NCBI RefSeq assembly: GCF_024055795.1 | Contig: NZ_JAMXMY010000024.1 | Coordinates: 62,001-126,000 of the forward strand | Source: Actinoallomurus purpureus | GTDB lineage: Bacteria; Actinomycetota; Actinomycetes; Streptosporangiales; Streptosporangiaceae | Length of the DNA stretch: 64,000 nt | Direction: 5' to 3' | Part shown: positions 3,082 to 22,964 of the stretch, piece after piece | How positions within the stretch are numbered: position 1 is the stretch's first letter | Layout: each line of letters begins with the position of its first letter | Notes under the pieces: model-generated | The model's input: only the letters and a program-made list of their open reading frames with translations | Databases searched by the model: none | Told to the model about the DNA's origin: nothing | Program-made: the position numbers and the translations under genes

Positions 3082-4389
3082 ATGCCGATAGTCGCCGTGG
3101 TGATCGGCGTGGTCGTCGCCGTCATCATCCTGATCATCATCTTCAAGGCGATCTGGCGGGTCGCCGAGCCTAACGAGGCGCTCATCATCTCCGGTCTCGG
3201 AGCGCGGGCGCACAACCGGGACACCGCCGAGAGCCTCGGCTTCAAGATCACCACGGGTAGGGGCACGCTCGTCCTCCCCGGCTTCCAGACCTGCCGGCGG
3301 CTGTCGCTGGACACGCGGGTCTCCGGCCTGGAGGTCACCTGCGTGACCTCGCAGGGCATCAAGGTCCACGTCCGCGGCGTCGTGATCTACAAGGTCGGCG
3401 ACGACTTCACCTCCATCGCCAACGCGGCCCGGCGCTTCCTCGACCAGCAGAAGATGATGGACGACAAGACCCATCAGCTGTTCGCCGGGCACCTGCGATC
3501 CATCGTCGGCAACCTCACCGTCGAGGACCTCCTCCGCGACCGCGACCGGCTGACCAACCAGGTCCGCACCTCCTCCGCCGACGAGATGGGCAAGCTCGGC
3601 CTCGTCGTGGACTCCCTGCAGATCCAGGACATCGAGGACGAGGTCGGCTACATCGACAACCTCGGCAAGCCGAACTCCGCCGCCGCCGCCTCGGCCGCCC
3701 GCATCGCCGAGGCGCAGCGCAACCAGGAGGCGACCGAGGCGGAGCAGGTCGCCGAGCAGGCCAACGCCGCCCAGATCCGCGACACCGAGATCAAGAAGCG
3801 CCAGTACCAGGGCCAGGTCGACCAGGCCGCGGCCGAGGCCCGGCAGCAGGTCATCCTCAAGGAGACCAAGAACGCCGAGCTGGAGGCCGACCGCCGCGAG
3901 AAGGCGCTCGAGGCCGAGGTCCGCAAGCCGGCCGACGCGAAGGCGTACGAGCGCGTCACCCTCGCCGAGGCCGAGCGGCGGGCGGCGGTGGCCAAGGCCC
4001 AGGCCGAGGCGGAGGCCACCAAGATGGCCGGTCAGGCGGAGGCCGAGGCGACGCGGGTCAAGGGACTGGCCGAGGCGGAGGCGATCAAGGCCAGGGCCGA
4101 CGCGCTCGCGGAGAACCAGGAGGCGGTCATCGCCCAGCAGCTCGCCGAGAACTGGCCCGAGATCGTCGCGGCGGGCGCGAAGGTCTTCGGCAACGTCGAC
4201 AACATGGTCGTGCTCAACGGCGCGGAGGGCGTCGAGGACATGCTCGCCAAGGCGCTCACCCTCGGCGGCACCGGTCTCGGCGTCGCCCGGCAGCTGCTCG
4301 CCTCCATGAGCGACCGGCAGGACCTCGCCGCCCGCAACGGCAGGCCCACCGCACCGGAGAAGGCCGTCGACGCCGGCGGCGCCGCCTGA
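3082..4389 (+). CDS. Flotillin-family (SPFH) membrane scaffold protein
   Basis: A 435-residue protein with start at 3082 after GAGGAGG. Residues 3-22 are an N-terminal membrane anchor (IVAVVIGVVVAVIILIIIF). The SPFH/PHB domain follows (about 25-200; EPNEALIISGLGA, VRGVVIYKVGDD, VGNLTVEDLLRDR), then a long Ala/Glu/Gln-rich coiled coil (about 205-350; repeated EAEA and QAEAEATK blocks) and a short C-terminal oligomerisation region. Flotillins organise fluid, protein-rich membrane domains. The NfeD-like gene just upstream supports this assignment. A strong hairpin terminator follows at 4420-4447. Confidence 0.92.
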   Translation: MPIVAVVIGVVVAVIILIIIFKAIWRVAEPNEALIISGLGARAHNRDTAESLGFKITTGRGTLVLPGFQTCRRLSLDTRVSGLEVTCVTSQGIKVHVRGVVIYKVGDDFTSIANAARRFLDQQKMMDDKTHQLFAGHLRSIVGNLTVEDLLRDRDRLTNQVRTSSADEMGKLGLVVDSLQIQDIEDEVGYIDNLGKPNSAAAASAARIAEAQRNQEATEAEQVAEQANAAQIRDTEIKKRQYQGQVDQAAAEARQQVILKETKNAELEADRREKALEAEVRKPADAKAYERVTLAEAERRAAVAKAQAEAEATKMAGQAEAEATRVKGLAEAEAIKARADALAENQEAVIAQQLAENWPEIVAAGAKVFGNVDNMVVLNGAEGVEDMLAKALTLGGTGLGVARQLLASMSDRQDLAARNGRPTAPEKAVDAGGAA

Positions 4390-21428: not shown

Positions 21429-21704
21429 GGTGCGAAGCCTATCGAGATCTCCGGTTTTCCGGACTGGCGAGGGAAGCGCCGACGGCCCGGCGGTGTTGGT
21501 CTGAGCAGAGCCGACGCCCGTACGCTCCGAGGCGCGCCGCCGCGGAGGGCCGTGCGGTGCCGGGGCCGACCGGGCGACGGCAGTGATTTTTCGAATAATC
21601 CGGGAAACGTGTGAACCGGTTGCCCTGCCGGGGCGTCCTTAATTACCCGGTGTAATCTTAGAGCCTCGTGCTCTGACGCCGACGACCCGAAGGAGGTGGT
21701 TGGA

Positions 21705-21803
21705 ATGAGTCCTGGCGATCCTTGCAGTAACGCCGAGCCTCCTCACGATCCGACCATCTCTACTCGGCGTCCGGCCGCCTCCGGCGCGCGCTCCCCGCTC
21801 TGA
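21705..21803 (+). CDS. Pro/acid-rich upstream ORF, candidate Mg2+-sensing leader of corA
   Basis: A 32-codon ORF with a near-perfect Shine-Dalgarno (GAAGGAGG, 21689-21696) ahead of ATG 21705. It begins MSPGDPCSNAEPPHDPT, with acidic and proline residues packed into the first 17, then turns basic (STRRPAASGARSP). It ends at 21803, 57 bp before corA. Leader peptides of Mg2+ transporters such as E. coli MgtL are likewise Pro/acid-rich. When Mg2+ is low the ribosome becomes unstable on them and this switches on the transporter. A stem ACGCGCG/CGCGCGT (21814-21831) lies between it and corA. Function here is inference. Confidence 0.6.
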   Translation: MSPGDPCSNAEPPHDPTISTRRPAASGARSPL

Positions 21804-21813
21804 TCCCGGGTTG

Positions 21814-21831
21814 ACGCGCGCTGCCGCGCGT
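21814..21831 (+). promoter_or_regulatory. Stem-loop between the leader ORF and corA
   Basis: A 7-bp perfect stem (ACGCGCG, 21814-21820; CGCGCGT, 21825-21831) with CTGC loop, 30 bp before the corA start codon. It could act in attenuation or ribosome-site masking linked to translation of the upstream ORF. Confidence 0.4.
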
Positions 21832-21860
21832 GGGGCCGGGCCAGGGTTAGGAGTTCCCCC

Positions 21861-22964
21861 ATGGCCATGACCAGGGTTCGCCCCGGGCGCGCCACCCGCG
21901 TCCTGTTCAAGCCGCTCGCCCGCCCCGGCCGCATCTCGGCGGGTGAGTCGATCAACGAGAGGTCCGCACTCATCGACTGGGCGGCGTACGTCGACGGCAA
22001 GCGCGTCGACACCGCCAGCCTCGCCGACGCCGTCGAGCTCGTCCGTGCCCCCGACGACCTCCCCGAAGACGCCGAGCAGGGCGACCGTTTCGTCTGGGTC
22101 GGGCTGCACGAGCCGGACGCCGCCGAGCTGGAGCGGCTGTCCGAGGTGTTCGGTCTGCACCCGCTCGCCGTCGAGGACGCCGTCCACGCCCACCAGCGGC
22201 CGAAGCTGGAGCGCTACGACGACGTGCAGTTCGTCGTCATGAAGACGATCGGGTACGTCGAGCGCGGCGGCACGGAGACCGTGCAGGCCGGCGAGATCAT
22301 GATCTTCTGTGGTCCCGACTTCATCGTCACCGTCCGTCACGGCGAGCACGGAGCGCTCGCCCCCGTCCGGCGGCGTCTCGAGGAGACCCCGGAGCGCCTC
22401 GCCCTCGGCCCCGCCGCCGTCCTGCACGCCATCATCGACCGGGTCGTGGACGACTACATCTCCGTCGGCAACGACGTCCAGCAGGACATCGACGAGGTCG
22501 AGGAGAACGTCTTCTCCGCCGACGCCACCAACCAGGCCGAGCGGATCTATCGGTTGAAGCGCGAGGTCATCCAGCTCAAGCGCGCCGTCGGCCCCTTGTC
22601 CGGACCGCTGCGCAATCTCGCGGCCCGCCGCTTCGTCCCGGCCGAGATCCGCGAATACTTCCGCGACGTCGACGACCACCTCACCCGTGTGCGCGAGCAG
22701 GTCGAGTCCTGCGACGAGCTGCTCACCCCCATCCTCCAGGCGCACCTCACCCAGGTGACCGTCACCGACAACCACGACATGCGCAAGATCTCCGCCTGGG
22801 CGGCGATCCTCGCGATGCCGACGGCGATCACCGGCGTGTACGGCATGAACTTCACGCACATGCCGGAGCTGCACTGGAAGTACGGCTACCTGGCCGCCCT
22901 GGGAGTCATCGCCGGCGCCTGTTTCGTCCTCTACCGCGGCTTCCGCCGCAACGGCTGGCTCTAG
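21861..22964 (+). CDS. corA: CorA-family Mg2+/Co2+ transporter
   Basis: A 367-residue protein; ATG 21861 follows AGGAG. The large N-terminal cytoplasmic domain includes FGLHPLAVEDAVHAHQRPK (~120-138). A long stalk helix (DVQQDIDEVEENVF to QLKRAVGPL) leads to two C-terminal membrane helices. The first ends in the signature YGMNF (GMN at ~328-330), the selectivity loop of the pentameric Mg2+ channel. The C-terminus is basic (RGFRRNGWL). The stop codon lies inside the IS481-derived repeat at 22961. An upstream ORF (21705) probably controls expression. Confidence 0.94.
   Translation: MAMTRVRPGRATRVLFKPLARPGRISAGESINERSALIDWAAYVDGKRVDTASLADAVELVRAPDDLPEDAEQGDRFVWVGLHEPDAAELERLSEVFGLHPLAVEDAVHAHQRPKLERYDDVQFVVMKTIGYVERGGTETVQAGEIMIFCGPDFIVTVRHGEHGALAPVRRRLEETPERLALGPAAVLHAIIDRVVDDYISVGNDVQQDIDEVEENVFSADATNQAERIYRLKREVIQLKRAVGPLSGPLRNLAARRFVPAEIREYFRDVDDHLTRVREQVESCDELLTPILQAHLTQVTVTDNHDMRKISAWAAILAMPTAITGVYGMNFTHMPELHWKYGYLAALGVIAGACFVLYRGFRRNGWL

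Follow-up and report, generated by a model that had tools for sequence, protein, structure and literature searches.

A conserved leader open reading frame upstream of corA in Streptosporangiaceae, with likely kinship to magnesium-linked leader ORFs

Introduction

According to PMC11552253, Mg2+ regulation of both corA and mgtA in Escherichia coli proceeds through the translation of an upstream open reading frame (uORF) and Rho; corA answers Mg2+ through its 5′ region, Rho and the short ORF corL, whose translation lowers corA. Such a short ORF lies in the corA 5′ region of both Salmonella and E. coli, and in E. coli it starts with UUG (PMC11552253). The uORF mgtL, which precedes the Mg2+ importer gene mgtA, contains an early acidic residue and proline in its EPDP sequence (PMC11282234). 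In Salmonella, the uORF mgtQ of the Mg2+ transporter gene mgtB has acidic codons 2 and 5 and overlaps alternative stems (PMC8092293). In Mycobacterium tuberculosis, the pe20 M-box is reported to control uORF2/Rv1805A via an anti-Shine-Dalgarno (anti-SD) sequence and Rho-dependent termination; the same report calls the Rv1805A peptide mycobacteria-specific, gives this type a proline at position 7, and proposes a regulatory role for the peptide (PMC12810186). The M-box (ykoK) riboswitch (RF00380) itself controls Mg2+ transport genes.

Here we describe a uORF upstream of corA in the window, that is, the whole stretch of 64,000 nucleotides from Actinoallomurus purpureus (family Streptosporangiaceae) that was analysed. 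Like corL, it is a short ORF preceding the gene of a Mg2+ importer, and like mgtL and mgtQ it combines an early acidic residue, in our case followed by Pro, with a Mg2+ transporter downstream. It differs from mgtL in having one conserved acidic residue, within G-D-P, and CorA as the transporter (compare PMC11282234). As in mgtQ, the uORF may overlap alternative stems, whereas the masking of the ribosome binding site (RBS) described for mgtQ (PMC8092293) was unsupported by folding of the corA leaders. Rho dependence and Mg2+ response have been reported for corL (PMC11552253), whereas the actinomycete leader is known from its sequence. With uORF2/Rv1805A as described in PMC12810186 it shares a strong SD with ATG, an anti-SD predicted to mask the SD, and the link to a Mg2+ uptake gene; it differs in having no M-box, in carrying its anti-SD inside the uORF instead of upstream, in the gene being corA, and in having no proline at position 7. 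The M-box was not found in the window's leader nor in the window's genome, whereas similar uORFs lie behind M-boxes of the family.

A preliminary description of this DNA regarded such leaders as known for mgt genes and was aware of none for actinomycete corA. The class as such is not new to corA, as corL precedes the enterobacterial gene (PMC11552253). A leader ORF of an actinomycete corA, or a Rv1805A-like uORF outside mycobacteria, was not found in the open-licence literature. Our best reading is that the corA uORF is an M-box-free relative of the M-box/Rv1805A and corL/mgtL leader ORFs.

Organization of the corA leader

The leader of the window contains the following features.

21705..21803, + strand: uORF of 32 codons plus TGA (MSPGDPCSNAEPPHDPTISTRRPAASGARSPL); ATG at 21705, stop codon TGA at 21801-21803
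21690..21699, + strand: Shine-Dalgarno (SD) sequence of the uORF, AAGGAGGTGG, seen in the sequence; an SD is also present in the relatives' leaders
21861..22964, + strand: corA, CorA-type Mg2+/Co2+ channel; ATG at 21861; assigned by Pfam and TIGR00383
21711..21728, + strand: conserved core of the uORF, codons 3-8 (CCT GGC GAT CCT TGC AGT), motif NCT GGY GAT CCN NNN AGT
21692..21704, + strand: 5′ strand of predicted stem P1, in the SD region, 13 pairs; from the window's own fold and relatives
21749..21761, + strand: 3′ strand of predicted stem P1, the anti-SD within the uORF, codons 15-19; from the fold and relatives
21771..21790, + strand: 5′ arm of possible hairpin T, at the uORF 3′ end; CCGGCC at 21771-21776, CGGCGCGCG at 21782-21790
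21815..21839, + strand: 3′ arm of possible hairpin T, in the linker; CGCGCGCTG at 21815-21823, GGCCGG at 21834-21839
21814..21831, + strand: local 7-bp hairpin ACGCGCG-CTGC-CGCGCGT, competing with T; present in the predicted fold of the window's leader
21653..21658, + strand: putative -10-like hexamer TAATCT, proposed from the sequence and an alignment of 48 leaders of another subgroup

The corA product is a genuine CorA (Pfam PF01544, E 2.2e-60; TIGR00383 above its cut-off). The coordinates and a conservation beyond chance bear out the preliminary description of a 32-codon uORF with a strong SD 57 nt before corA, counted from the uORF stop to the corA ATG, and the 7-bp stem that it placed between the two is likewise present (21814-21820 with 21825-21831).

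Many of the aligned relatives have a TGnTAnnnT-like sequence at the matching place. The transcript start would fall a few nucleotides downstream of the -10-like hexamer. The uORF presumably lies on the corA transcript. A generic promoter scan returned no site on the + strand, and a scan for intrinsic terminators found none. The window's leader had no Rfam match at E<=5 nor at E<=10, and Rfam searches of seven related loci gave just two unrelated sub-threshold matches. L016 scores 28.8 bits, below the threshold, against the L31-Actinobacteria ribosomal protein leader (RF03158) at 3665-3725 on its minus strand.

Distribution among relatives

CorA homologues were taken from 60 relatives, and the uORF was first recognised upstream of many of them. 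A sequence-only model (R1), extending from the SD to about codon 12 of the uORF, was searched against 200 genomes of the window's family. Together with a check of the loci, it placed the uORF leader in 120 genomes, in each with corA downstream (raw count 121 of 200; G186 was excluded as a weak match without corA). There was one match per genome in all but three of the 121 matching genomes, and the corA check covered loci from all 120 genomes, one to several each. Leader and corA were found on the same strand at 136 of 151 loci, some of which are one place fetched twice. Left out of the 136 were L069-L071 and L149-L151 (weak leader match, no corA) and nine loci without a model match (L017, L021 and L024-L030). 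The 136 loci yielded 111 distinct leaders: the window's family contributes 110, and L012, which belongs to another family of the order, contributes the last. Both L012 and L017 are more distantly related and were recognised by eye.

A hand comparison showed that the leader goes with one corA orthologue group as defined by sequence: among 37 genomes of the family, it was present in 20 of 20 with a corA of the window's type (E <= 1e-100) and in none of the 17 others. Upstream of the two other CorA-like genes of the window's genome, no SD-led short ORF was found in the stretch examined. A pattern scan of named genomes gave at least 117 loci, with corA downstream in at least 92. Among the matches listed, those with corA included loci of Actinomadura, Nonomuraea, Streptosporangium, Microbispora, Herbidospora, Planotetraspora and Thermomonospora, 11 others ended at the edge of the locus, and 14 were without corA, none of these 14 being named as a member of the family.

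Outside the family the leader is rare: among 121 genomes sampled from the order there was a single strong match in another family. R1 searched over 296 genomes of the class matched 12 genomes of the family, plus one weak match without corA, and in a search of 246 genomes of the phylum with the corA-leader model R2 the window alone matched strongly. Twelve weaker R2 matches from the sample of the order were inspected, and four of them proved to be a uORF of the genus Microbispora. Regarding a generic-RBS origin of the weaker matches, four (L357, L358, L360 and L362) open other frames, and at a further four (L355, L356, L359 and L361) there is no SD-led frame at the R2 match; corA is absent downstream of L357.

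Constraint on the reading frame and codons

The uORF frame contains no stop in codons 10-26 in any of the 111 leaders or of the 46 non-redundant ones, whereas the +1 and +2 frames are interrupted in 18 and 38 of the 111 and in 9 and 14 of the 46, respectively. The distance from the start codon to GGYGAT is 9 nt in 110 leaders and 6 nt in one, a shift by a whole codon, whereas the spacing between SD and start codon is variable, with 13, 14, 15 and 16 nt all represented. The conserved start of the uORF can be written SD-ATG-[S/N]-[P/S]-G-D-P with rare codons. Residues G4, D5, P6 and S8 are kept in 108, 108, 102 and 104 of the 111 leaders, and position 7 is S, C, V, A or N. An acidic residue in codons 2-6 together with a proline in codons 3-8 occurs in all 111 corA uORFs, compared with 31 of 45 uORFs behind M-boxes and 8 of 36 SD-led long ORFs.

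The preliminary description had looked to codon conservation among related corA leaders, and in the uORF kept in 120 of the 200 family genomes the rare codons 3, 5 and 8 are indeed retained: NCT at codon 3 in 103, GAT at codon 5 in 105 and AGT at codon 8 in 103 of the 111 leaders. In five genes of the window, GAT accounts for 7 of 132 Asp codons, AGT for 2 of 103 Ser codons and NCT for 6 of 340 four-box Ser, Pro and Thr codons. This conservation of rare codons suggests that the constraint may act on RNA instead of the peptide. Frame, residues and codons together indicate that the constraint on the leader is both coding and at the RNA level.

The Pro- and acid-rich character given to the first 17 codons in that description is typical of the window's lineage; elsewhere it is chiefly G4-D5-P6 and S8 that are kept, other leaders reading for example MNPGDPSSTCSRTY. 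The uORF ranges from 26 to 45 codons, and both length and C-terminus differ between lineages. This variation speaks against the uORF encoding a small protein that acts in trans, for example on CorA, and the conserved downstream stretches coincide in many leaders with the predicted anti-SD. The strict conservation of the N-terminus would fit a trans-acting peptide, as would the regulatory peptide role proposed for Rv1805A in PMC12810186; we nevertheless consider this explanation very improbable.

At 21714-21721 of the window, codons 4-6 contain the sequence GGYGATCC. It resembles the complement of the 3′ tail of 16S rRNA, perhaps by chance. Pairing of GGTGATCC with this tail was dropped as a candidate, because GGC variants disrupt the complementarity.

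RNA structures of the leader

The leader contains an internal anti-SD that, by comparison of folds and relatives, is able to pair with the SD of the uORF itself (stem P1). Across 10 leaders from one subgroup, P1 had 118 of its 119 cells paired, compared with 41-64% when slid. The changes in P1 are all one-sided (GC/GU), because the SD hardly varies. When the downstream sequence was shuffled for comparison, just 17 of 46 leaders passed the level of 5 of 100, and the support for P1 is therefore its position and the pairing of the 118 cells.

The second structure, T, would form between the uORF 3′ end and the linker ahead of the corA SD. In 26 leaders of one subgroup, which is not that of the window, 80.6% of the cells were paired compared with 19-56% when slid, and 22 cells were changed on both sides. 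The covariation score in this subgroup exceeded all 500 shuffles, while two of the five measures (two-sided-change pairs and pair types) were reached by 117 and 97 of the 500 shuffles, and relatedness alone can raise such scores. At a level of 5 of 100, 23 of 43 leaders had a T region more stable than its shuffles, and a swapped-arm test favoured the own arms in 59 of 75 and in 23 of 32 leaders. In the window itself T was not significant (z -0.3), and folding 19 leaders from the subgroup of the window into a consensus gave other hairpins instead.

One explanation built on T is a translational switch on corA like that of mgtQ-mgtB in Salmonella: a ribosome finishing the uORF would break T, and the linker could then cover the corA start. 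The covariation of the T arms in one subgroup agrees with such a switch. In one subgroup a small GC hairpin contains the corA SD in 18 leaders, and visual inspection of this subgroup suggests pairing between the linker arm GCGCGTG and CATGCGC at the corA start. Against it, 49 of 111 leaders had a corA RBS predicted to be cheaper to open once the ribosome aborts early, and 62 did not. A comparison of a ribosome at the stop codon with an aborted one likewise gave no consistent direction in the 46 non-redundant leaders, and narrower windows of sequence gave mixed results. A simple masking of the corA RBS was rejected on the inconsistent sign of these foldings, and we regard a translational switch as improbable.

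In one group (L013-L023 and relatives), an SD-like sequence, GAGGTGAC or GGGGTGAC, lies between the uORF and corA and sometimes contains the uORF stop codon.

Leader ORFs behind M-box riboswitches

M-box riboswitches were found in 50 of the 200 family genomes. An SD-led ORF of 19-49 codons lies within 170 nt behind the M-box at 45 of 48 loci (31 of 32 in the family and 14 of 16 elsewhere), compared with 173 of 1920 random windows of the M-box loci (9%). The corA-leader model R2 matches 11 of the 48 M-box loci (E 1.3e-6 to 2.7e-3), and all 11 R2 matches with E<=1 in 146 kb sit on the start of a uORF behind an M-box. Four of the 11 matched loci are of the MSPGDSP/MSPSDSP type, which is taken for mycobacterial. 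The other 37 M-box loci, including those of the MDSDSPG type, were without an R2 match. Because the MDSDSPG type is unmatched, the case for its kinship to the corA uORF consists of its architecture and its similarity to the MSSSDSPGRSP type. Examples of uORF peptides behind M-boxes of the family are MDSDSPGRSRP.., MDSSRPGHHRP.. and MSSGSSPQP.., and those in the loci of another family begin MSPGDSPYP.. or MSSSDSPGRSP... The latter loci are taken for mycobacterial because the published description fits them, and their M-S-P-G-D-S-P is close to the M-S-P-G-D-P of the corA uORF. Similar uORFs are found here in Streptosporangiaceae and one further family, whereas PMC12810186 describes the peptide as mycobacteria-specific.

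In L340, an M-box is followed by the uORF MSPGHSPRLSWAGSATPAA and, at +349, by a gene for a Pfam CorA. Three genomes of the genus Microbispora (L351-L353) keep the promoter region and the uORF of the M-box leader, and the M-box between them is missing; compared with L310, L313, L320 and L331, these loci represent a natural deletion of the M-box. A fourth genome keeps the uORF in a divergent leader.

The M-box uORFs lend the predicted Mg2+ link of the corA uORF independent support, and we regard this link as well supported. The proposal that the corA leader is a Mg2+-sensing one accordingly stands as to a Mg2+-linked leader ORF, with family-wide conservation and M-box uORF kin in its favour, and does not generalise as to its rationale, the composition of 17 Pro- and acid-rich codons being lineage-specific. 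A different signal, namely general translation stress or the state of proline or EF-P, would be in line with the proline at codon 6 in 102 of 111 leaders. Leader peptides often report on translation in general. Relatives of the uORF, however, lie behind M-box Mg2+ riboswitches, before Nramp-type transporters in the two cases tested among the genes behind family M-box uORFs, and before corA in L340, and we hold a signal other than magnesium to be quite improbable. An Nramp-type transporter is reported to carry Mg2+ in Clostridium (PMC4072509).

Pairing of SD and anti-SD within the uORF is also predicted for many M-box uORFs. In the subfamily with the SD GGAGGCG, the SD prefers its own downstream region (-25.4 kcal/mol) over the corresponding regions of corA leaders (-19.8 kcal/mol). 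The other swaps made little difference, the corA SD giving -22.8 with its own region, -22.9 with other corA members and -22.3 with the GGAGGCG targets.

Among the M-box loci (L300-L350), many uORFs of the GGAGGCG type have a C-terminal stretch, ..SSGTR stop, that coincides with the predicted anti-SD for their own SD. An ORF of 59-64 aa starting MTIT(I) follows the M-box uORF in L320 (1895-2074), L310, L312, L313, L331, L326 and L334; it occurs in the genus Microbispora and others, and the one tested had no Pfam match.

Possible mode of control

We propose, with about even confidence, that the leader is a Mg2+-linked attenuator of corA that acts in cis and is gated by translation of the uORF. 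Ribosomes would load on the uORF, and low Mg2+, or failed elongation at its acidic/Pro start, would lead to a pause or drop-off around codons 4-8. After drop-off P1 would close and the uORF would be shut, whereas completed translation would hold P1 open. The resulting difference in uORF translation would decide whether the transcript continues into corA, most likely via Rho, by analogy with corL/mgtL and the tuberculosis M-box leader. In this scheme we infer the translation of the uORF, its Mg2+ response, the part of Rho and the sign of control. By analogy with corL, efficient uORF translation would lower corA and its failure at low Mg2+ would raise it. Of all steps, this direction of control is the least secure, as the tuberculosis M-box leader suggests the opposite, with uORF translation accompanying expression. 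A point against this attenuator is that one conserved acidic residue with Pro is weaker than the EPDP of MgtL. The leader probably helps to tune cellular magnesium uptake.

A close rival of this translation-gated attenuator is RNA gating through P1, in which P1 itself senses Mg2+ or another signal and the peptide is irrelevant. At high Mg2+ a stable P1 would hide the uORF SD, Rho would terminate and corA would be off; at low Mg2+ P1 would open, and the translated uORF would shield the transcript. The near-complete pairing of P1 fits this explanation, as do the nucleotide-level constraint at codons 3, 5 and 8, the SD:anti-SD pairing predicted in M-box uORFs, and the preference of the GGAGGCG SD for its own region. 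The tuberculosis M-box leader, in which an anti-SD is reported to mask the uORF2 SD and Rho is used (PMC12810186), provides a precedent. On the other side, the leader is without an Rfam match, and the remaining swaps of SD and anti-SD are uninformative or against gating by RNA. Moreover, the early acidic residue and Pro are kept in 111 of 111 leaders and the frame is kept, neither of which would be needed if RNA alone mattered. We judge RNA gating to be somewhat unlikely.

More tentatively, and with rather low confidence, we suggest that a uORF with a built-in anti-SD may constitute a stand-alone, self-latching Mg2+ control module across Actinobacteria, to which the M-box would be an optional addition and which corA of Streptosporangiaceae would use alone. 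A finishing ribosome would keep its own SD open, and an abort at the acidic/Pro start would let the anti-SD close it.

With the corA leader, the range of Mg2+-linked leader ORFs would come to include actinomycete corA lacking a riboswitch, and the M-box loci suggest a wider occurrence for a uORF type that has been called mycobacteria-specific. A natural series runs from an M-box with uORF, through a uORF whose M-box is missing, to a corA preceded by the uORF alone. It makes directly testable whether the RNA or the translating ribosome reads Mg2+, which for mgtA is described as not fully understood (PMC11552253).

As a separate observation, the leader and the M-box tend not to co-occur within the family: in hand-compiled counts over the 200 genomes, with phylogeny not controlled, an M-box is present in 19 of 120 genomes with the leader and in 31 of 80 without it (Fisher p 4e-4).
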